Assembly: GCF_020886775.1 (NCBI RefSeq)
Contig: NZ_AP024525.1
Span: 2,914,001-2,978,000, forward strand
DNA length: 64,000 nucleotides
Direction of reading: 5' to 3'
Source of the DNA: Sinomonas cyclohexanicum
GTDB lineage: Bacteria; Actinomycetota; Actinomycetes; Actinomycetales; Micrococcaceae
Below, in pieces: positions 25,080-35,155 of this stretch (positions are counted from its first letter, which is position 1; each line of letters begins with the position of its first letter). Under the pieces are notes generated by a model. The model was not told the DNA's origin. It did not search any database and saw only the letters and a list, made by a program, of their open reading frames with translations. The position numbers and the translations under genes are program-made.

Positions 25080-25697
25080 TCAGCGAGAGGCGAGCCACCG
25101 TCCCAGAAGGCCCTCCTCCGGCACCTCCTCGGCGGTCAGCGCGAACGAATCGTGGTCGGCCCAGGCCCCGTTGATGTGCAGGTAGCGCGGCCGCAGCCCC
25201 TCGGGGCGGAAGCGGAGCTTCTCGACAACCCGCAGGCTCGGCTTGTTCTCGGGCCGGATGTTGATCTCCATCCGGTGCAGCCCGAGCTCGCGGAAGCAGT
25301 GGTCGGTGGCGAGGGCCACGGCCGTCGGGGCGATCCCCCGGCCGGCGTGCTCGCGGTCCACCCAGTAGCCGAGCGTCGCCATGAGCGCCGAGCCCCACAC
25401 GATCGAGGAGACCGTGAGCTGCCCGACGATGGGCGCGCGGCGGTCGCGCGGGTCATCGAGGGTGATGACGAACGGAAGGGCCGAGCCCTCGCGCGCCTGA
25501 TGTGTGAGGGAGCGGACCATGTCACGGAACGTCGGCAGGGTCCCGCCCGGCTGGGGGTTCGAGGCCTCCCAGGGGGCAAGCCATTCCCGGTTCCGGGCCC
25601 TCACCGACATCCATTCGGCGCGGTCGGACATGCGCAGCGGCCGCAGGACGAGGTCACCCGAGCGCAGGGTCACGGGCCACAGGCCCGAGGACCACAT
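25080..25697 (-). CDS. GNAT acetyltransferase, RimJ-like
   Basis: 205-residue GNAT enzyme of the RimJ/RimL group, which acetylates ribosomal-protein N-termini in E. coli. The fold is seen as LVLRPLRMSDRAEWMSVRAR, then the acetyl-CoA block LGYWVDREHAGRGIAPTAVA and EINIRPENKPSLRVVEKLRF. The start is ATG at 25697, 7 bp after galU; an ATG at 25727 would overlap galU. It lies between galU and the GlpR-like gene, the same place as Rv0995 in mycobacteria. Confidence 0.88.
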   Translation of the reverse strand: MWSSGLWPVTLRSGDLVLRPLRMSDRAEWMSVRARNREWLAPWEASNPQPGGTLPTFRDMVRSLTHQAREGSALPFVITLDDPRDRRAPIVGQLTVSSIVWGSALMATLGYWVDREHAGRGIAPTAVALATDHCFRELGLHRMEINIRPENKPSLRVVEKLRFRPEGLRPRYLHINGAWADHDSFALTAEEVPEEGLLGRWLASR

Positions 25698-25704
25698 GCG
25701 CGGT

Positions 25705-26622
25705 TCAGGCGCGCGCCGACGGGGCATCCGCCCCGCTGGCCACGAAGTCCGCGAGCCACGTGCGCAGGTCCGAGCCGAACTCGTCGCGGGCGCACGCCAG
25801 CGTCACGACAGCCTTGAGGTAGGAGAGCTTGTCCCCAGTGTCGTAGCGGCGTCCGCGGAACACGACGCCGTACACGCCGCCGCCCTCGCCCTCGCGCCTG
25901 GCCAGGGTCTGGAGCGCGTCGGTGAGCTGGATCTCCCCGCCGCGGCCGGGCTCGGTGTGGTGGAGCACCTCGAACACGGCAGGGTGCAGGACGTAGCGGC
26001 CGATGATCGCGAGGTTGCTCGGCGCGTCCTCGGGCGCGGGCTTCTCCACGAGCCCATGGACCTGCACGTAGTTCTCGCCCTCGACCGGGGTCACGTCCGC
26101 GCAGCCGTACGCGGAGATCGACTCGCGCGGCACCTCCATGAGCGCCACGACTGAGCCGCCGGTGGCCTGCTGGACCCGGATCATCTCCGCGAGCAGCTCG
26201 TCCCGCTCGTCGATGAGGTCGTCGCCGAGGAGCACAGCGAACGGCTCGCTGCCCACGTGCCGCTCCGCGCACAGGACGGCGTGGCCGAGGCCCTTGGGGT
26301 CGCCCTGGCGGACGTAGTGGATGTCGCCGAGGTTGTTGGACTCCTGGATCGCGGCGAGCTTCTTGCTGTCGCCCTTGGCCTCGAGCGTGGCCTCGAGCGA
26401 GGGGACGCGGTCGAAGTGGTCCTCGAGCGCGCGCTTGTTGCGGCCCGTGATCATCAGGATGTCGTCGATGCCGACCGACACAGCCTCCTCGACCACGTAC
26501 TGGATCGCGGGCTTGTCGACGACCGGCAGCATCTCCTTCGGCATCGCCTTGGTCACCGGCAGGAAGCGGGTGCCGAGGCCTGCGACGGGGATGACTGCTT
26601 TCCTCACAGCTGCGGTAGACAC
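25705..26622 (-). CDS. galU: UTP-glucose-1-phosphate uridylyltransferase
   Basis: Makes UDP-glucose for cell-envelope sugars and trehalose; 305 residues. The nucleotide-binding start is AVIPVAGLGTRFLPVTKAMP, then PKEMLPVVDKPAIQYVVEEA, QGDPKGLGHAVLCAER and the metal site LGDDLI. GLVEKP and GRYDTGDK-type (RRYDTGDKLSYL) blocks complete the family pattern. GTG at 26622 follows GAGTGAGGCTC. It is divergent from the 5-FTHF cyclo-ligase gene with 48 bp between starts. Confidence 0.95.
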   Translation of the reverse strand: MSTAAVRKAVIPVAGLGTRFLPVTKAMPKEMLPVVDKPAIQYVVEEAVSVGIDDILMITGRNKRALEDHFDRVPSLEATLEAKGDSKKLAAIQESNNLGDIHYVRQGDPKGLGHAVLCAERHVGSEPFAVLLGDDLIDERDELLAEMIRVQQATGGSVVALMEVPRESISAYGCADVTPVEGENYVQVHGLVEKPAPEDAPSNLAIIGRYVLHPAVFEVLHHTEPGRGGEIQLTDALQTLARREGEGGGVYGVVFRGRRYDTGDKLSYLKAVVTLACARDEFGSDLRTWLADFVASGADAPSARA

Positions 26623-26670
26623 GAGCCTCACTCTATACGAGTGCTGCGCGGGCGCGGATAGAGTCGGGGG

Positions 26671-27339
26671 ATGGACATCGCCGAGCAGAAGTCCGCGCTG
26701 CGTGCCCGGATCTGGTCCGCCCGCCGCTCGCTCGGGGCAGCGCAGGTCGACGCGGCTGCGCCCGGGATCGCGGAGCACGGCCTCGCGTGGGCGCGCGCAG
26801 CCCTCCCCCAGCGGGCCGTGCTGACGGCCTACCTCGGGGTCGGGGCCGAGCCGCCCACCGGACCCTTGATCGAGGCGCTGCACGCGGAAGGGTTCCGCGT
26901 CCTGCTGCCCATTTGCCTCCCGGAGCGCCAGCTCGGCTGGGTGGAGTGGCATCCGGGCATCGAGTTCGCGCGCAGCCGCTACGCGCCGGTGCAGGAGCCG
27001 GTGGGACCACTCATCCCGGGGAACGAGGCGATCGCGGGCGACGGCGTCAGGCCGGCCCTCGCGGGCATCCTCCTTCCGGCCACGGCGCTGGATGCCCAGG
27101 GCCGCCGCGTCGGGCAGGGCGGCGGCTACTACGACCGCTTCCTGGCGCGTGTGGACGCCGCCGGGGCGCGGGTACCGACCGCCGCGGTGGTGTACGACGG
27201 CGAGGTGCTCGCCCCGGGCTTGGTCCCGGCCGATGCGCTCGATCGCCTCGTCGAGGCAGCGGTCACTCCCGGCGGTCTCCGCCCGCTGGGGGCGGTGTCC
27301 CCGGGGGCGGCCGGGTCACCGGTCGGAATAGAGCCCTGA
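26671..27339 (+). CDS. 5-formyltetrahydrofolate cyclo-ligase
   Basis: ATP-dependent conversion of 5-formyl-THF to 5,10-methenyl-THF, a salvage step of one-carbon metabolism; 222 residues. Family motifs are KSALRARIWSARRSL at the N-terminus, the substrate loop LPICLPERQLGWVEW, and the C-terminal ATP-binding block ILLPATALDAQGRRVGQGGG followed by YYDRFL. It precedes the ruc homologue, as Rv0992c and Rv0991c do in M. tuberculosis. Confidence 0.94.
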   Translation: MDIAEQKSALRARIWSARRSLGAAQVDAAAPGIAEHGLAWARAALPQRAVLTAYLGVGAEPPTGPLIEALHAEGFRVLLPICLPERQLGWVEWHPGIEFARSRYAPVQEPVGPLIPGNEAIAGDGVRPALAGILLPATALDAQGRRVGQGGGYYDRFLARVDAAGARVPTAAVVYDGEVLAPGLVPADALDRLVEAAVTPGGLRPLGAVSPGAAGSPVGIEP

Positions 27340-27412: not shown

Positions 27413-27700
27413 GTGCCCACCTACGCCTACGCCTGCAAAGACTGCCACCACGCATTCGACATCGTGCAGTCGTTCAGTGATTCCTCGCTGACGGTCTGCC
27501 CCGAGTGCGGTGGCACGCTCCGGAAGAAGTTCAACAGCGTGGGCGTGGTCTTCAAGGGCGGCGGCTTCTACCGCACCGACTCCCGCAGTGGCGGCAGCAG
27601 TGTTCCCGCAGCGTCCGGCTCGAAGGACTCGGGAGCCACCGCTTCGAAGGACTCCGCGACTACGGCGTCCGCCCCGGCAGCGGCTGCCGCGTCGAACTGA
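27413..27700 (+). CDS. FmdB-type zinc-ribbon protein, homologue of chaperone Ruc (Rv0991c)
   Basis: 95-residue protein. The N-terminal zinc ribbon has CxxC pairs in YACKDCHHAF and VCPECGGTLRKKFNSVGVVF, then KGGGFYRTDSRSG and a disordered Ser/Ala tail. The sequence and its place next to 5-FTHF cyclo-ligase match M. tuberculosis Rv0991c (Ruc), reported as a redox-switched chaperone whose cysteines release zinc on oxidation and whose gene is under HrcA. A CIRCE-like box directly upstream supports the same control here. The start is GTG with AAGGAG 5 nt upstream. Confidence 0.9.
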   Translation: MPTYAYACKDCHHAFDIVQSFSDSSLTVCPECGGTLRKKFNSVGVVFKGGGFYRTDSRSGGSSVPAASGSKDSGATASKDSATTASAPAAAAASN

Positions 27701-27808: not shown

Positions 27809-28546
27809 ATGAGTCGCCCCTCGCCCCGGTCCCCGGCGCGGCGCCCACCCGGCCCGCGCCGCGCCCCGTCCATGCGCCCATGGGCGCCCGTCAGGCGGAG
27901 CCGCCTGAGGCGCTTCGTCGACCGTCGTCGTCGGACCGTCGCGGCGGCGCTGCTGTGCCTCGGAGCCGGCATCGCCGTCTACCAGCTCACCCCGCCCTCG
28001 GCCGCAATGGTCTCCGTCGCCGTGGCCGCCCGCGATCTCGCTGGCGGCGCCGCCCTGTCCCCCGGCGACCTACGCACCGCGCGGCTCCCCGCGGACGCCG
28101 TTCCCCAGCGCGCGGAACTCGATCCCCCGCGCCTCGTCGGGCAAAGGCTCGCTGGGCCGCTGCGCAGCGGCGAGGTCCTCACGGACGCCGCCGTCGTCGG
28201 ACCCGGCCTCCTGGCCGGCACGGCCCCGGGAACGGCGGCTGTGCCGGTGCGGATGGCGGACCCCGCGTCACTCGAGCTCCTCAGCCCCGGCCAGCTCGTG
28301 GACCTCGTTCTCAGCGCCGACGCGGGCGGCGGGGGCTCGGCGGGCACGGCGCTCGCCTCCCGCGTCCCCGTGCTGTGGACCGGGAAGGCGTCGGGCGGTG
28401 GGGCCGGCGGAGCGTGGATCGGCTCGACTCAGGACTCGGACGGACTCCTCGTGGTGGGGGCGTCGCCCGAGCAGGCCCTGCGGATCGCGGGGGCGTCGAC
28501 GCGCGGCAAGGTGTTCTTCATGCTCGTCGAGACGGGGCCCCGATGA
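27809..28546 (+). CDS. SAF-domain membrane-anchored protein (CpaB/RcpC-like)
   Basis: 245-residue protein: a basic proline-rich N-terminus, one transmembrane helix at about 47-65 (TVAAALLCLGAGIAVYQL), then a SAF domain (VSVAVAARDLAGGAALSPGD, VLTDAAVVGPGLL) and an RcpC-like region ending in VLWTGKASGGG and LLVVGASPEQALRIAGAS. SAF proteins of this kind belong to Flp pilus assembly, but no other pilus gene is visible here, so its job may be different. The start is the ATG at 27809. Confidence 0.85.
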   Translation: MSRPSPRSPARRPPGPRRAPSMRPWAPVRRSRLRRFVDRRRRTVAAALLCLGAGIAVYQLTPPSAAMVSVAVAARDLAGGAALSPGDLRTARLPADAVPQRAELDPPRLVGQRLAGPLRSGEVLTDAAVVGPGLLAGTAPGTAAVPVRMADPASLELLSPGQLVDLVLSADAGGGGSAGTALASRVPVLWTGKASGGGAGGAWIGSTQDSDGLLVVGASPEQALRIAGASTRGKVFFMLVETGPR

Positions 28547-28557
28547 GGCGGTACCCA

Positions 28558-31500
28558 CTAGCCCCAGTGCGGCGGCTTCTGCTCCTTGAGCCAGCGGTCG
28601 CGCTCCCGTTCCCCCGCATTCGTCGGTCCGGGCTCCTCGGTGGGCGCCGGCACCGGAGCCTCGGGCCCGTCGGCGGAGGCCGGCCCCGTGCCGGGCACGG
28701 TCACGCGGCGTCCTCCGCGCGGGCGGCGGAGTTCCGCAGCGGCGTGGGAGCCGTGGTCGGGTGCGTCCATTCTGGGTGCGTGGCCCGGGTCGTCCGGCTC
28801 GCGCGCTGCCGCCTCGCCTTCCCGCACGTCCTGATCGCTTCCCTCGGAGCCCTGCTGCCCGCCGTGTGCGGTCGGACCCGTGGCAGGCCGGGCTCCCTGG
28901 GCCGGCTCGTCACTGCCCTGCTCGGTGGCCATGGCCCCGCCCTCCTTCTTCGTGCCGATCGTGCCGCCGGCAGGGGCGTCCGCCCTCGGGGCCGTGCGCA
29001 TCGCGGGACCGAGCGACCCGCCCGCGTGCCTGCCGCCGTCCGCGCGGGCCCCGGCGCGCTCGCCGGTCGCGGGCGGCACGGGCCCTCCCGTGAGGAAACC
29101 CGCCGATCCGTGCTCGTCGGCGTGCGTGTCGAGGCCCAGTTCCGTCGCGATCATCTCGGCGCAGCTGCTTGGATCCGTGAAGACCTCGATCGTCCACAGC
29201 GTGAAGTGCTTCCAGCCAAGGCGTTGGAGTCGCTCCGGGTGCTGCCGCGTGCGCTCGCGAACGCTGAGGCGGCGGTAGCGCTCGGTGCCGTCCGACTCGA
29301 CCGCGACGGGCGCGCTCGTCTCGTGCTCCTCGAGGCCGATCGTCAGCAGGGGGTCGATGGCCGCGGCCATGTCCACCGCGCCGTCGTAGTGATGCCAGAC
29401 GCGGGCGCCCCGGGAGGCAAGGCGGTCCCCGAGGTCGGTGACGAGCGGGTCGGCGCCCAGCGCCTCGGCACTCGCGGCGGCGCGCGTCGCCGGCGTGCCC
29501 AGGTGCGTGTTGCCGTCCAGCTCCCGGTCGAGCAGCTCGTAGAAGTCCGAGGCGCCCTCGCTCAAGCGCGTGACATCCAGCTCGGAGGGCCTGAAGCAGC
29601 TCAGCACGTGCATGCTGTGGCGTGCGCGGCTCATCGCCAGCGCAAACCTCCGCCGCCCGCCGGGCTCACTGAGCGGCCCGAAGTGGTGCATCGCGCGGCC
29701 GTGGGGGGTGCGGCCGAATCCGAGCGAGAAGATCACGTGATCGCGGACCAGGCCGCCGGCCCTGTCGATGTGGACCACCCGGAACGGTTCCTCGCCCCCG
29801 CTGAAGAAGTCGACGATGTCCGGGTGGTTGGCCATCTGCAGGCGGATGGCCTCGCCGACCCGGGCCGCGTGGTGCGCGCTGGCGGTGATCACCGCGAGGG
29901 ACACGGCCGGGCGGTGCCGCGCGTGATCGAACACGAGGTCGACCACGCGGTTCACTTCCGCAGCCACAGACTCGACGCCGCCGTCCTCTCCACTCGGCAG
30001 GCCCATTCCCTCGGCGAGGTACTCGAGGAGGAACGGCCTGTCGAGGCCCGTGACGCTCGGACCGTCCGGCAGCCGCCGCAGGCTCCCGGAGTAGAAGCGG
30101 CGGCTCAGCTGGAGGTCGAGGTCCTCGTCCACCGACCGGTACACAGTGCGAAGCCGAACCGACGGCAGGACGCGGGAGAGTGCAGTGAGGGCGCTCTCGA
30201 CCGTGGGAACAAGCGGCTGGCCGGGCTGCTGCTCGACGCTCACCGAGAAGGGCCTCGGGTTGGCGACCTGGGGATCGCCCAGGGCGATGACCCTCTCGGC
30301 ACGCGCGATCGCCGGGAGAGCGGCGCGCAGCGGCATGGAGTCCGCGTCGAGGAGGATCACGGCGTCGAACCTGTGGCCCGGCGTCAGGGCGGGATTGAGG
30401 GCGTATGGGCTGCAAGTCCAGACGGGCACGAGCGGCCGAATGAGGCGCGGGGACTGCCGCTCGAGGGCGGCGAGGCTGATCCGGCCGTCCTTGAGCAGGG
30501 CGCGGAGTGCCTCCGCCTCCCGGGAGTGCCGCACGATCGCGTCGGACCATTCACGCGCCAGCCGCCACCTCAGCCGCGCTGCGCCGCTGGCGATGTGGGC
30601 GCGGTCTGCCCGGGCGAACTCGGACTCGGCGCGGCGCAGCTGGTCGCCGTCGGACATCGCGAGGTAGTCGTCCCCGCTGATCATCGCTTCCAGGACCGAC
30701 TGCCACCACGCGAGCTCGAGCTCGGACGCGACGACGCCGGCCGGTGCTTCGCGCTCGGTGAGGTCGCTCAGGAGGTCTCCCAGCCCGTGCTCGCGGAGCT
30801 CGTCCTCAAGCAGCGTCCGCTCTGGCAGCGAGCGGAGCAGGGGCGAGTCCTCCGCGAGGGCGGCAAGCCGTGCCGCAAGGCTGTCCACCTTGGCCTCGAG
30901 GAGCTTCCCGCCCTGCGCGGTGGGTGCGAGGATCGCGCCGAGGCGCATCAGGCCCCGTTCGGCGGCGAGATACGCCTCCCTGAGTTCCGCGAGCCCCGAG
31001 GGGACCGAGGGGTGCCGTTGGGACGTCGCGCACAGGGCCCAGGCCTCGCGCTGCGACTGGACGAGGGACAGGGAGCTGTGGAGGTCGGACAGGTGAACCC
31101 CGGGCCGCACGTATTCCTTGGCCACCCTGCGGAGCCGCGAACGCTGCAGCGCCGTCACCTCGATGCCGCGTTCCCTGCGCCACGCGGCGGGGGCAGTGGC
31201 CGCGATCAGGTCCGTGACGGGCCGGTCGAAGATGTCCGGGGTGAACTTGTCCAGGCTCTCGCGCACCGAGACGAGGAGCTCGAGCTGTCGCCCCCATCCC
31301 GCCACCGTCGGCTCGAGCCGGATCGCGGCGTGCTCGGCCACGGCGGCCATGCGTTCCTTGAGCGCGGGAACCTCGGTCGAAAGGCGTGCGGCGAGCTCGC
31401 GCGCATCGTCCGTCTCTCGGCGCGTCACGAGGCGCGCGCCGTGCCACGGGCTCTCCGCGACGGCACGGCTGAAGCTCCCGAGATCGGCCGCCCGTCGAAG

Positions 31501-32883
31501 CCGCTCGCTGAGGCCGGCGCGGTCCTTGATGCTGTCCAGGACGCTCCGCTTGAGCCGCACCGTGGTTGCGGGGGCCGGGTGCAGCGACGTGAGGGCCGCG
31601 AGGGACTGCATCGCCTCGTACGGCGAGCATCCCCAGCGTTCGCGGACGTTGTGCAGCGAGGCGACGTGGTCCATGAGCTGGTGGCGGCGGTCCCGCAGGA
31701 CCCGGTAGACACCTTCGAGCTGGGGCTCGTGAGACTTCTCATTGCGCACGATCGCGCGGACGATCTGCGAGCGCAGCTGGCCCGGACCAACGGTTGCCCC
31801 GAGCTGCAGGACGAGCGAGCCCAGGCCGAGGGCGTCGCACTCGCGGTGAAGCTCAGCAAGGCTTGCCCGGCGCTCCGCGACGACGAGCACGGAGCGCCCC
31901 GACTCGACGAGGGCCGCGAGGGCGTTCACCGCCGTCTGGGTCTGCCCGGTGCCGGGGGGCGCCTCGACCACGAGCGAGTCCCCCGCCCGGACCGCGTCAA
32001 TGACGAGCTGCTGGTCGGCGTCGGCATCGAGGACGAGGAACTCGTCCTCGGGGTCGCGCTCATCGAGGGCGGGGAAGCGAGACTCGTCCAGTGGCTCGGG
32101 GGCGGGGTGGACCGAGCCGGATGTCGAGGCCATCGCCGCGAGGATCGGGTGCGCGGCGGTGATCGCAGGGTCCTCGAGCGACTCCTCGAGGTCCGCGAAG
32201 GTGGAGACGGTCAGGCGGGACTCGACCTGGGCCCCGGCGATGGGCGCCACGAGGGCCCTGACTCTTTCCAGCACCGGGTGCGGGTCGAGCCGCGCGGTGC
32301 TGTACGCCATCCGCTCGATCGCCGCGGCATCGATGTCGATCCGGTGCACGGCGCGCAGATGCCGCACGAGGGCGGGGTTGATCCTGGCCTGCTCGGTGAG
32401 CTTGAGCTCGAAGTCGTCCTGCTCCGGGCGGACGGTGAGCTCGACCGCGGCGAGCAGAACGGGCGCGCTCACGCGGCGCGGCCTGCCGCCCACGGCAGAC
32501 GTCCAGGTCGCGAGCCCGGCAGCGAGGTGGCCGGCGTCGACCCCGCGCTCGTTCGCGAGTTCATGCGACTTGGCGCGGAGGTTCCGGGCGGCGCGGGCCG
32601 CACGGGTGTAGTCATGGCGGTCACGCAGGAGGGTCGAGAGCCGTGTCCGGCGGCCGGCGAGCAGCTGGGCGAGGCCGGAGGCATGCGCATGGGTGAGGTC
32701 GATACTGCCGTCAGGTCCGGGGAAGAACGCGAGCATCGTGTCCGGTCCCGTCACCCCGGGCAGGGCCGAGAGCCACGCCTCAAGGCGGGCCTCCTCCTCG
32801 GGGGTCGTCGTCTCGGGCACGTCGTCGCTCTCCTGAAGAGCTGCAAGTGCGCTGGCTTGTTTGCCTGTGGACCATCTCGGCAT
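28558..32883 (-). CDS. Superfamily-1 helicase-like protein with C-terminal Vsr-like nuclease domain, degenerate ATPase
   Basis: 1441 residues. An N-terminal unknown region (1-290) precedes a DNA2/NAM7-like helicase core. Walker A reads APPGTGQTQTAV with Gln at 314 where Lys is invariant in active enzymes. Walker B reads VILLDADSMP, with Ala847 in place of the usual Glu after Asp846. Later motifs are RTVYRSVDEDLD, FGRTPHGRAMHHFG and FALAMSRARHSMHVLS (motif VI). At about 1150-1260 lies a PD-(D/E)xK/Vsr-like domain of the REase_MTES_1575 kind: GAVDMAAAID (D1171), PVAVESDGTERY (E1196, D1198) and LQRLGWKHFTLWTIEVF. The last ~190 residues are disordered, ending in WLKEQKPPHWG. ATP hydrolysis is predicted lost or altered while the nuclease core looks kept. 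Upstream of guaA stop by 153 bp, same strand. Confidence 0.8.
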   Translation of the reverse strand: MPRWSTGKQASALAALQESDDVPETTTPEEEARLEAWLSALPGVTGPDTMLAFFPGPDGSIDLTHAHASGLAQLLAGRRTRLSTLLRDRHDYTRAARAARNLRAKSHELANERGVDAGHLAAGLATWTSAVGGRPRRVSAPVLLAAVELTVRPEQDDFELKLTEQARINPALVRHLRAVHRIDIDAAAIERMAYSTARLDPHPVLERVRALVAPIAGAQVESRLTVSTFADLEESLEDPAITAAHPILAAMASTSGSVHPAPEPLDESRFPALDERDPEDEFLVLDADADQQLVIDAVRAGDSLVVEAPPGTGQTQTAVNALAALVESGRSVLVVAERRASLAELHRECDALGLGSLVLQLGATVGPGQLRSQIVRAIVRNEKSHEPQLEGVYRVLRDRRHQLMDHVASLHNVRERWGCSPYEAMQSLAALTSLHPAPATTVRLKRSVLDSIKDRAGLSERLRRAADLGSFSRAVAESPWHGARLVTRRETDDARELAARLSTEVPALKERMAAVAEHAAIRLEPTVAGWGRQLELLVSVRESLDKFTPDIFDRPVTDLIAATAPAAWRRERGIEVTALQRSRLRRVAKEYVRPGVHLSDLHSSLSLVQSQREAWALCATSQRHPSVPSGLAELREAYLAAERGLMRLGAILAPTAQGGKLLEAKVDSLAARLAALAEDSPLLRSLPERTLLEDELREHGLGDLLSDLTEREAPAGVVASELELAWWQSVLEAMISGDDYLAMSDGDQLRRAESEFARADRAHIASGAARLRWRLAREWSDAIVRHSREAEALRALLKDGRISLAALERQSPRLIRPLVPVWTCSPYALNPALTPGHRFDAVILLDADSMPLRAALPAIARAERVIALGDPQVANPRPFSVSVEQQPGQPLVPTVESALTALSRVLPSVRLRTVYRSVDEDLDLQLSRRFYSGSLRRLPDGPSVTGLDRPFLLEYLAEGMGLPSGEDGGVESVAAEVNRVVDLVFDHARHRPAVSLAVITASAHHAARVGEAIRLQMANHPDIVDFFSGGEEPFRVVHIDRAGGLVRDHVIFSLGFGRTPHGRAMHHFGPLSEPGGRRRFALAMSRARHSMHVLSCFRPSELDVTRLSEGASDFYELLDRELDGNTHLGTPATRAAASAEALGADPLVTDLGDRLASRGARVWHHYDGAVDMAAAIDPLLTIGLEEHETSAPVAVESDGTERYRRLSVRERTRQHPERLQRLGWKHFTLWTIEVFTDPSSCAEMIATELGLDTHADEHGSAGFLTGGPVPPATGERAGARADGGRHAGGSLGPAMRTAPRADAPAGGTIGTKKEGGAMATEQGSDEPAQGARPATGPTAHGGQQGSEGSDQDVREGEAAAREPDDPGHAPRMDAPDHGSHAAAELRRPRGGRRVTVPGTGPASADGPEAPVPAPTEEPGPTNAGERERDRWLKEQKPPHWG

Positions 32884-32979
32884 AGCTCCGAGGTTAGCCT
32901 GTCATGTCGCATTCCCCGGGCGTGCAACGCTGCGGGCGGCGAAATCAGCGACGCCAGGGTAGCCGACGGCCCGAACGGC

Positions 32980-33013
32980 GACGGCCGGCGTCCCGCAGGG
33001 GGCGCCGGCCGTC
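32980..33013 (-). terminator. Hairpin downstream of guaA
   Basis: Perfect 11-bp arms GACGGCCGGCG (32980-32990) and CGCCGGCCGTC (33003-33013) with a 12-nt loop, 24 bp after the guaA stop. There is no T-tract, common in high-GC terminators. Confidence 0.65.
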
Positions 33014-33036
33014 TCACGTCAAGGGCAGCCCGATGG

Positions 33037-34647
33037 CTACTCCCACTCGATGGTTCCCGGCGGCTTGCTCGTGACGTCGAGGACCACGCGGTTCACACCG
33101 TCAACCTCGTTGGTGATCCGGTTGGAGATCTTCGCGAGGAGGTCGAACGGGAGGCGGGACCAGTCGGCGGTCATGGCGTCCTCGCTCGAGACGGGGCGCA
33201 GCACGATCGGGTGACCGTACGTGCGGCCGTCGCCCTGGACGCCCACGCTGCGGACGTCGGCGAGGAGCACCACGGGCATCTGCCACACCTCGTTGTCGAG
33301 GCCCGCGGCGGTGAGCTCGGCGCGGCCGATCGCGTCAGCCTTGCGGAGCAGCTCGAGCCGTTCCGCCGTGACCTCGCCGATGATCCGGATGCCGAGGCCC
33401 GGACCGGGGAACGGCTGGCGGGCGACGATGACCTCAGGGAGCCCCAGCTGCCGACCGACGGCGCGCACCTCGTCCTTGAAGAGTGCCCGGAGCGGTTCGA
33501 CGAGCTCGAACCGGAGGTCCTCGGGGAGGCCTCCAACGTTGTGGTGGCTCTTGATGTTGGCCGCGCCTTCGCCGCCGCCGGACTCGACCACGTCCGGGTA
33601 CAGGGTGCCCTGGACGAGGAACTTGATCTGCTCCCCGGCGGCATTGGCCTCATCGACGATGGCACGCTCGGCCTCCTCGAACGCGCGGATGAACTCGCGC
33701 CCGATGATCTTGCGCTTCTCCTCCGGGTCCGTGACTCCCGCGAGCGCGCCGAGGAAGCGCTCCTGCTCGTTGGCCACATGGAGCTTGACGCCGGTCGCCG
33801 CGACGAAGTCGCGCTCGACCTGCTCGGCCTCGCCTTCTCGCAGGAGGCCGTGGTCGACGAAGACGCACGTGAGCTGGTCGCCGACCGCGCGCTGGACGAG
33901 TGCCGCGGCGACGGCGGAGTCGACGCCGCCCGAGAGCCCGCAGATCACGCGGGCGTCTCCGACCTGGGCACGGATCCGCTCGACCTGCTCCTCGACGATG
34001 TTGCCCGTGGTCCAGTTGGGCTCGAGCCCGGCGACCTCGAACAGGAAGTTCTCGAGCACCCTCTGGCCGAAGTCGGAGTGCTTGACCTCGGGGTGCCACT
34101 GGACCCCGCCGAGGGCCTTGGCCTCGTTGACGAACGCCGCGACGGGCGCACCCGCCGTGGTCGCGAGCACCTCGAACCCGGCCGGCGCCGTCTGCACGGA
34201 GTCGCCGTGGCTCATCCACGTGCTCTGGGCGGCCGGGATCCCGGCGAGCAGGGAATGCGGCTCGCCGACGGCGGTCGCAACCGTGGCACCGTACTCGCGC
34301 AGCCCCGTGCGCGCCACCGTGCCGCCGAGTGCGTTGGCCATCGCCTGGAAGCCGTAGCAGATGCCGAACACGGGCACGCCGGCCTCGAACAGGTCGGGCC
34401 CAACGCTCGGCGCGCCCTCGGCGTACACGCTCGAGGGCCCTCCGGAGAGGATGATGGCGGCGGGGCTCTTGGCGAGGATCTGCTCGGTGGTCAGGGTGTG
34501 CGGGACGATCTCCGAGTACACGTTGGCCTCGCGCACGCGGCGTGCGATGAGCTGCGCATACTGGGCGCCGTAGTCCACCACGAGCACCGGCCGCTGGGCA
34601 GTCTGCACTGTGGGCGACTGGGCCGAGTCTTGGGAAGCTGTAGTCAC
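33037..34647 (-). CDS. guaA: GMP synthase (glutamine-hydrolysing)
   Basis: Last step of GMP synthesis, XMP + glutamine + ATP to GMP; 536 residues. The class I glutamine amidotransferase half has the nucleophile in [17 protein letters not shown] and the His/Glu pair in GVQWHPEV. The ATP-pyrophosphatase half has the P-loop [16 protein letters not shown], followed by the GuaA dimerisation domain ending in [20 protein letters not shown] and IEWE. The start is GTG at 34647; the frame stays open upstream over the DUF3817 gene. Two further guanine genes, guaB and guaB3, are 4-7 kb away on the same strand. Confidence 0.96.
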
Positions 34648-34669
34648 TCCATCAAGGGTACCGGACCAG

Positions 34670-35155
34670 TCAGTACCGCTGGCCTGCCTCGGGGTGAGAC
34701 TCGAGTTCGCGCTCCGCCTCGGCATGCATCCGGCGCTCGACGAAGAAGCTCAGGAACGGCACGACGCCACCCAGCGCCATGAGGATGAACCGCATGAAGG
34801 GCCAGCGCATGAGCGACCACACGCGGAAGTTGGAGATGAGGTAGATCACGTACATCCAGCCGTGGACGATGAGGATCGTGATGGAGACGTTCACCCCGCC
34901 GACGACGCCCGCAGGCTCCGCGTCCGCCAGGCCGAACCCGAAGGGCCTGCCGGTGAACGCGTCGCTGCCGCCGGCGAACAGGAACTGGCCGAACGCGTAC
35001 CGGGCGATCATCTCGGCGCACAGCAGCAGGAGCATCGTGCCCGTCACGTAGGCCGCGACGCGGTAGAACTTCAGCGCGGAGCGGATCTGGGCGACGGTGC
35101 CGCCGAAGCGGCGCTGGCCGGTGGTTCGGCCCACGGCGGGCTTGGGGTCGATCAC
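34670..35155 (-). CDS. DUF3817 membrane protein
   Basis: 161-residue integral membrane protein with three or four helices and the DUF3817 pattern ([60 protein letters not shown]). This family is widespread next to guaA and SURF1 in Micrococcales; function is unknown. Its ATG overlaps the SURF1 stop by four bases, and the guaA GTG lies 23 bp after its stop, so the three are likely one operon. Confidence 0.92.

Follow-up and report, generated by a model that had tools for sequence, protein, structure and literature searches.

A DUF4011/ProA-type helicase–nuclease that has lost its ATPase motifs and may have been kept as a partner of a small PPHW protein

What keeps a long helicase–nuclease gene in its place in the chromosome when the motifs of its motor have been lost? 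The question is raised by one gene in a stretch of 64,000 nucleotides of Sinomonas cyclohexanicum (contig NZ_AP024525.1, positions 2,914,001 to 2,978,000; hereafter the window), whose genome is a single contig of 4.41 Mb. On the minus strand of the window, an open reading frame (ORF) of 1441 codons runs from 32883 to 28558 and encodes a full-length protein of 1441 residues, in agreement with an earlier note made from the sequence alone. From the N- to the C-terminus the protein is laid out as DUF4011, a degenerate superfamily 1 (SF1) motor of the Upf1/IGHMBP2-like type, a Vsr-like nuclease domain, a linker and a tail with a PPHW element; the gene (28558..32883, minus strand, as are all features inside it) is defined by the ORF, by Pfam and by a profile match to intact relatives (E 6e-174). 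We lean towards the reading that it is a domesticated, ATPase-dead DUF4011/ProA-type SF1 helicase–Vsr-like nuclease, which serves as a nucleic-acid scaffold and as the partner of a PPHW protein. That a protein of anti-phage type has been fixed, has lost its ATPase and is still selected is drawn from live relatives elsewhere, from motif loss throughout the family and from low ratios of nonsynonymous to synonymous substitution (dN/dS).

The P-loop of the window protein reads APPGTGQTQT, with Gln314 (codon 31942-31944) at the position of the Walker A lysine (degenerate motif I, residues 309-317, PPGTGQTQT, 31933..31959), as the earlier note had observed. A profile of the window protein and 17 relatives (A1, 18 rows) was aligned by hhalign with a profile of five intact relatives (A2) over 1160 columns, and this P-loop was paired with GPPGTGKSQT. 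The possibility that the true P-loop lies elsewhere in the protein was rejected, as all four Pfam AAA/DEAD matches, weak as they are, fall on residues 289-373, the same site that hhalign pairs. In this alignment, VILLDADS (with L845-D846-A847-D848-S849) stands without a gap opposite VIFDEASQ of the intact relatives, so that Walker B (motif II, Leu845-Asp846, 30346..30351, placed by the hhalign register and residue counts) has changed from Asp to Leu845 and from Glu to Asp846. Ala847, which the earlier note took for the lost glutamate, is the ordinary alanine of DEAS, and that assignment was off by one. The intact profile matched IGHMBP2 (PDB 4b3f, E 2.5e-19) and Dna2 (3.9e-10), and in the IGHMBP2 alignment the DE pair and motifs III, V and VI paired as expected, so the motif register was checked by two alignments. 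The Walker A Lys and Walker B Asp-Glu of an ATP-driven SF1 (Upf1-like) helicase are thus replaced by Gln314, Leu845 and Asp846.

The printed profile alignment stops at Walker B, and motifs III, V and VI were registered by MAFFT alignments. Motif III is degenerate (residues 869-876, GDPQVANP for GDERQLPP, 30256..30279); its Gln is kept in none of 11 Q-type rows, and the Gln of the window protein sits one place earlier. Motif V (residues 1036-1048, 29740..29778) carries VVHIDRAGGLVRD in place of VKNLERVQGDERD, so that QGDERD of the intact form is GGLVRD in the window. The motif V Glu has been lost (Val1046 in all 80 nearest loci), and the Gln is Gly1043 in the window, yet Gln in 63/80 of these relatives. 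Motif VI is retained (residues 1082-1088, LAMSRAR, 29620..29640), with MSRAR at 1084-1088 as the earlier note had it, and R1086 and R1088 are each present in 80/80. Judged by these motifs, the window protein very probably does not hydrolyse ATP.

The nearest named relatives are 11 Sinomonas loci, whose best segments show 65–88% identity. Gln314 and Asp846 are found in all of the 80 nearest loci, Leu845 in 70 (Ile in 9, Val in 1) and Ala847 in 78, and the P-loop frame PPG(T/S)GQ(T/S)QT is kept throughout. A sequencing error or a lone deviant gene was therefore rejected, which also removes drift of a single exceptional copy. The invariance of Gln314 means little by itself, because these loci are close relatives (the 81 rows agree in 402 of 1193 columns). 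A wider sample of the window's family comprised 40 loci from 29/32 genera, with one to three per genus. Position 314 holds Q in 26, A in 4, E, R and G in 2 each, and L, V, D and H in 1 each, but never K, so the site went on varying once the lysine had been lost; the three genera outside this sample have Q. The special role for Gln that the earlier note implied is not supported, with nine residue types at this position. In the same 40 loci, residue 845 is Leu in 39 and Ile in 1, and residue 846 is Asp in 36 and Glu in 4.

These data also bear on the function offered in the earlier note, namely a nucleotide-sensing switch which binds ATP or ADP via the P-loop glycines without hydrolysis and thereby gates the Vsr-like nuclease. 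The preserved P-loop frame in the 80 nearest relatives speaks for it, as do the strand–loop–helix arrangement at the P-loop in a structure model (the loop itself being of low confidence) and the nuclease residues D1171, E1196 and D1198, all kept in the window protein. However, the switch would require nucleotide binding without the lysine and without the Walker B Asp, a Mg2+ ligand, which is Leu or Ile in all 40 loci of 29 genera; the window protein has no Lys between residues 300 and 345 that might compensate; several genera of the family have a destroyed P-loop, as do others across the order; and nuclease residues decay in other families too, which argues against gating as a common function. 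We consider such a switch decidedly improbable.

In the window's family 149/149 genomes match, 148 of them at E <= 1e-250 and one (G265) at 7e-9 only, and in one genome (G228) the gene is split over two open frames. In the order 57/59 genomes match, and in the class 74/148, many of these being merely generic P-loop matches. We compiled a set of 88 rows, consisting of five members of the short family with the Walker A Lys (K-types), 12 long paralogues, four plasmid relatives and 67 rows without the lysine. The Lys, the Walker B Asp and Glu and the motif III Gln are all kept in 5/5 K-types, 12/12 long paralogues and 4/4 plasmid relatives, and the motif V Glu is present in 3/4 plasmid relatives. 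The K-types (L090, L092, L094, L102 and L209) belong to families other than the window's, and their motif V is also intact. Both Walker B acids are kept in 0/67 non-K rows, in which position 314 is R in 13, A in 12, Q in 11, V in 10, G in 9, S and T in 3 each, P and L in 2 each, and I and H in 1 each.

Protein was obtained for 67/68 of the loci L083-L150 (L150 is absent). Twelve rows were excluded from the set: L085 (the window), L215 (from the genome of L122), the fragments or partial rows L107, L116, L120 and L132 (non-K) and L106 (P-loop unreadable), the K-bearing paralogue pieces L223-L225, and L226 and L227, which are pieces without the P-loop. A tree was built without the columns of residues 300-322, 838-854 and 866-882, leaving out nine near-duplicates (L003, L084, L099, L105, L135, L217, L219, L220 and L221). 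It is a quick tree with long branches, in which the outgroup does not fall on one side of a branch; the short-family rows form one clade (64 rows, SH-aLRT 100) with K-bearing rows near its base. The parsimony minimum for the loss of Lys is three changes, but the topology test did not reject a single loss (p-AU 0.192).

That the motor was lost in situ is supported chiefly by location, as intact and dead versions occupy a common chromosomal position. The neighbourhood of the window gene recurs around four of the five K-types: the stretches L157, L159 and L161 show a SAF gene, an FmdB-like zinc-ribbon gene and the PPHW tail, and L169 shows FmdB, a 5-formyltetrahydrofolate cyclo-ligase gene (FCL), galU, a GNAT acetyltransferase gene and a PPHW ORF. 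The long paralogues (about 1850-2680 codons) sit elsewhere in their genomes.

To this are added the signs of selection. dN/dS was calculated between the window gene and the 11 Sinomonas loci (NG86, custom script), and since some dS values exceed 1 the ratios are rough. Five folded regions, covering the N-terminus, the motor, the helical insert and the nuclease, gave 0.04-0.25, with the motor about as low as the nuclease; the linker (residues 1253-1390, 28714..29127, defined by its fast evolution) gave 0.40-0.85 in the 9/11 pairs that were computable, and the last 51 residues gave 0.26-0.80. A pseudogene was rejected on these values. The proposal of the earlier note that selection, not drift, maintains this form is upheld as far as clade-wide motif loss and constraint on the gene are concerned, and fails in the role it gave to Gln. 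The gene very probably has a core, non-mobile and selected function.

The nuclease domain was placed at residues 1126-1252 (29128..29508) by a sub-threshold Pfam match: REase_MTES_1575 (PF18741) aligns with 1183-1248 at 27.3 bits, below the gathering score of 38.2, and the same family is above threshold in 7/7 relatives scanned (49.2-121.8 bits). All three residues listed as kept in the earlier note are present, D1171 at 29371-29373 and E1196/D1198 within 29290-29298. E1196 and D1198 are found in 80/80 nearest loci and D1171 in 67 (Asn in 13), while the 40 family loci have D1171 in 38/40, E1196 in 11/40 and D1198 in 40/40. D1171 is kept in 8/56 other non-K rows, where the alignment is gappy. 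In the long paralogues with intact motors (L134, L135 and L140-L149) the nuclease Glu is present in 0/12 and both Asp are kept, which suggests that the Glu is not needed there or that their nuclease differs. E1196 is weakened as a marker because of this absence, and D1171 and D1198 look like the better ones. On these residue patterns, the chance that the nuclease is still active in the window protein is put slightly under even, and it is probably dead in families without D1171.

The best-scoring models for the whole protein come from anti-phage systems. DUF4011 (PF13195, residues 89-176, 32356..32619) passes Pfam with 33.9 bits against a cut-off of 22.2. The window protein matched anti-phage ProA (NF058533) at E 1.9e-110, with 370.4 bits against an NCBIfam cut-off of 1500, and anti-phage Hhe (NF042953) at E 3.3e-47, with 160.7 bits against 2000. 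PDC-S37 of PADLOC, a model without a stated cut-off, gave E 6.8e-112, and the better of two stretches covers 694-1338 of its 1550 positions. The five K-types reach 657-832 bits against ProA, also below the cut-off (their proteins were taken from the first Met, and some lack N-terminal residues). ProA, PDC-S37 and Hhe resemble the window protein in joining a DUF4011-type SF1 helicase to a C-terminal Vsr-like nuclease; they differ from it in that the window protein is shorter, has dead ATPase motifs, a fixed chromosomal neighbourhood and a fused PPHW tail, and stays below the NCBIfam cut-offs.

With these matches and with nuclease residues kept near the window, the gene could be a stripped ProA/PDC-S37-like defence protein, chromosomally fixed and working as an ATP-independent anti-phage nuclease. 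Defence genes are usually patchy in distribution, whereas this one matches in every family genome searched; its scores lie far under the cut-offs of ProA and Hhe; the neighbours are housekeeping genes, of which PADLOC recognised 0/8; and the nuclease residues have been lost in many other families. A scan of viral_contigs gave 21 pattern matches and no relative, which is weak evidence as the patterns were taken from close relatives, and one weak tblastn relative was found in a phage collection (H21, 23.6% identity). The earlier note had regarded the gene as the best candidate for an undescribed system in the window; an anti-phage system at work here is not supported, and we regard the stripped defence nuclease as unlikely.

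The reading as a domesticated scaffold gives a place to the end of the gene. The gene ends in DRWLKEQKPPHWG, which is well kept among relatives, with the conserved C-terminal motif ERDRWLKEQKPPHWG at 28561..28605. In other genomes, a similar element (approximately LPxxxxDDxDxGWGD...DxxLxxERPPHW) ends a small separate ORF directly after the helicase gene; of the 80 nearest loci, 64 have the element fused and 16 have it as a separate ORF. A profile of the element (A3, 25 rows) matched the window once (4.8e-10, one match in the genome), where the element is fused and lies beside SAF and FmdB. In the class A3 found 113/148 genomes at E <= 0.01 (99 at <= 0.001), with a single match in 108/113, and the element is more widespread there than the helicase. 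In the phylum 14/149 genomes matched, 10 of them in the window's class, and the other four matches are weak and stop short of the model end. Pfam and NCBIfam name no family for five pieces (four 50-residue ends and the last 180 residues of the window protein), the sole NCBIfam match being at chance level (E 3.3), so that this conserved small protein has no name in these databases. No description of PPHW together with actinobacteria was found in the literature searched.

PPHW occurs without a helicase match in 24 stretches of the class and order, of which 16 have SAF and/or FmdB (in L293 and L294, both among the 16, a text pattern missed the ORF that the profile had found). At L203:9600-9749 (G010), a PPHW small ORF stands beside SAF, FmdB, FCL and GNAT, and no helicase gene was found there. 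In family f31 (L232, L233, L234 and L281), a small protein ends in PPHH and none of the window's neighbours is present in the fetched stretch. The greater spread of PPHW, and its survival where the helicase was not found, would fit a further explanation, in which a slowly decaying helicase part survives as a relic only because an important PPHW protein is translated from its 3' end. Such a relic would not be expected to show dN/dS of 0.04-0.25 throughout the folded part, with the motor as constrained as the nuclease, nor matches at E <= 1e-250 in 148/149 family genomes, and the 16/80 near relatives with a separate PPHW ORF still keep the long gene. We hold the relic to be very improbable.

Within the linker of the window gene, a ribosome-binding-site-like AAGGAGG (28941..28947) precedes an in-frame ATG at 28932 by 8 nt, and a putative nested small ORF of 124 residues runs in frame from this ATG to PPHWG (28558..28932). 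A strict ribosome-binding site (AAGGAG or AGGAGG) followed by an in-frame ATG or GTG was found in the linker of 33/65 fused genes (34/359 starts), compared with 7/3663 starts in the rest of the genes. Codon-shuffled controls gave a mean of 2.7 genes and a maximum of 8 in 300 shuffles; for ATG alone, 16/65 fused genes were found against a shuffle mean of 1.2 and a maximum of 7. The strict pattern was chosen after a first look with a looser one, and the 33/65 represent an enrichment, not 33 events, because related genes are not independent.

Structure models gave a partial view of the motor. AlphaFold2 models were built from 34 and 33 of the 81 rows, close relatives only. In the model of residues 60-1252 the P-loop is flanked by a strand and a helix, the arrangement of RecA folds, with a predicted local distance difference test score (pLDDT) below 50 in the loop. 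The confident part of the model of residues 831-1252 covers approximately residues 971-1120, and the nuclease domain is not resolved in the models. Foldseek matched the second model to a spliceosome chain (the best match, 1.6e-5), Aquarius (4pj3, 2.3e-5, probability 1.00), Senataxin (2.0e-4), the HelD C-terminal domain (2.5e-4) and Ighmbp2 (4.0e-4), and the matched part may be the second RecA lobe. A sequence search of the PDB with the window protein gave no matches, and with profile A1 the best E was 0.0046, to a chain named sc-apCC-6-SLLA.

Taken with the evidence above, the following course may be proposed. A DUF4011/ProA-like helicase–nuclease of anti-phage type would have become fixed in the chromosome and then lost its ATPase, so that the motor would no longer hydrolyse ATP or translocate. 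Both RecA-like lobes, together with the large helical insert, could then act as a nucleic-acid-binding clamp or scaffold. ATP-independent cutting or nicking of the bound DNA by the Vsr-like domain may persist in the lineage to which the window belongs, and seems to be lost in other families. The partner would be the small PPHW-tailed protein, encoded directly after the helicase or fused in frame to its end, and with an internal start often present, a tethered and a free form would both be possible. For a scaffold with the PPHW protein as its partner we see about an even chance. More tentatively, and with somewhat lower probability, the class-wide, single-copy PPHW protein may have captured an anti-phage-type helicase–nuclease as a structural partner, the motor being dismantled after capture; the small gene would then be nested in frame with its own ribosome-binding site in many Micrococcaceae, one gene giving the tethered and the free form.

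Several observations weigh against this account. The models are weak, with a mean pLDDT of 61.6 for residues 60-1252 and 54.1 for 831-1252, and Foldseek of the former against the PDB gave no match at E <= 0.001 (Dna2 0.026, Upf1 0.034). Loss of the lysine does not exclude that ATP is still bound, and the last Arg of motif VI is kept in only 4/5 of the K-types. The nuclease may already be weakened, as D1171 is Asn in 13/80 near relatives. The fifth K-type (L209, stretch L237) shows no shared neighbour and no PPHW ORF within its stretch. Synteny in the order is patchy: in a sample of 57 loci, which includes the window and the Actinomyces oris locus L113 and in which some contigs are short, FmdB was found in 38, FCL in 30, GNAT in 26, SAF in 23, galU in 16 and guaA in 4. 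The PPHW element was not found in 9/40 family stretches, several of which are short; A3 matched 40/59 genomes of the order and left 19/59 without a match; and 8/24 helicase-less PPHW stretches show none of the neighbours queried. Adjacency and fusion do no more than suggest a partnership, since loss of a stop codon can fuse two neighbours.

Among known proteins, the giant HEPN-transglutaminase-SF1 helicase-Vsr-wHTH proteins such as MTES_1575, as presented in PMC3710099, share with the window protein an SF1 helicase and a Vsr-family nuclease domain, MTES_1575 being the namesake of Pfam REase_MTES_1575; unlike the window protein, they are longer and carry wHTH/DUF3320. Paralogues of about 2000 residues are like this type as far as length and motifs go, and the 12 long paralogues differ from the window protein in their kept motor motifs and other genomic places. 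IGHMBP2, Dna2, Upf1, Aquarius and Senataxin are similar by sequence match of the intact relatives or by fold match of the C-terminal motor part of the window protein, whereas the window protein lacks the catalytic motifs I, II and III of Upf1-like SF1B helicases. Utp25, according to PMC9539457, is likewise a helicase-similar protein, titled a pseudohelicase and part of a larger machine, but of unrelated family and role (the eukaryotic SSU processome). No description of the short helicase family was found in the literature searched, which included the available parts of PMC3710099, PMC10250203 and PMC7448276 and had most subscription journals outside its scope, and no paper was found for PDC-S37.

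Such a gene matters in more than one way. Here a defence-type helicase is fixed in a core position, has lost its engine and is kept, and what an ATP-less helicase–nuclease does becomes a testable question in many soil bacteria. Defence helicases and restriction enzymes are, as a rule, gained and lost again. The natural series, from an intact motor, through a dead motor with nuclease residues kept, to forms with both degraded, could serve to separate the roles of motor, nuclease and scaffold. It is also a warning that sub-threshold matches to ProA, Hhe and PDC-S37 in actinobacteria may be housekeeping pseudohelicases, not defence genes.

The neighbourhood itself is as follows. Upstream lies guaA (GMP synthase, 33037..34725, minus strand, Pfam), which in 80/80 nearest loci has the same orientation as the gene and is separated from it by 76-367 bases; the guaA linkage raised in the earlier note thus holds among the nearest relatives, but not as a general feature of the order. 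A scan for promoters and terminators between guaA and the gene found none. The convergent neighbour is a SAF/CpaB-like gene (27809..28546, plus strand), which lies on the opposite strand and <= 1.2 kb from the end of the nuclease domain in 80/80 nearest loci. It is followed by the zinc-ribbon gene (27413..27700, plus strand, Pfam Zn_ribbon_8), FCL (26671..27339, plus strand), a nucleotidyl transferase gene, probably galU (25705-26652, minus strand), and the GNAT gene (25080-25727, minus strand), all identified by Pfam and synteny; the names FmdB and galU for the zinc-ribbon and nucleotidyl transferase genes are our assumption. The zinc-ribbon protein is similar to the family that includes the redox-regulated chaperone Ruc (PMC7448276), a likeness that does not imply orthology. 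Pfam on eight neighbours gave GNAT, nucleotidyl transferase, 5-formyltetrahydrofolate cyclo-ligase, zinc ribbon, SAF/RcpC, GMP synthase, DUF3817 and SURF1, and in the stretches fetched for the 80 nearest loci DUF3817 is found in 80, SURF1 in 79, FmdB, FCL and galU in 77 each, and GNAT in 75.

Three further observations were made around this locus. Antisense to the gene and guaA, a plus-strand open frame of 2300 codons spans 27880-34782, which we regard as a product of chance in GC-rich DNA. Two records, titled 'Acidobacteria bacterium' (L067) and 'Sporosarcina beigongshangi' (L082), contain copies of Arthrobacter type set in the guaA neighbourhood, and probably the titles are wrong or the assemblies contaminated. 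Finally, a 415-kb Actinomyces oris record labelled as a plasmid (L113:1-19288) holds the core locus with a dead helicase, beside which lie a small ORF ending in VPPHWG, mscL, SAF, 5-formyltetrahydrofolate cyclo-ligase, Glp and GNAT genes; this record may be a chromid or a piece of chromosome.

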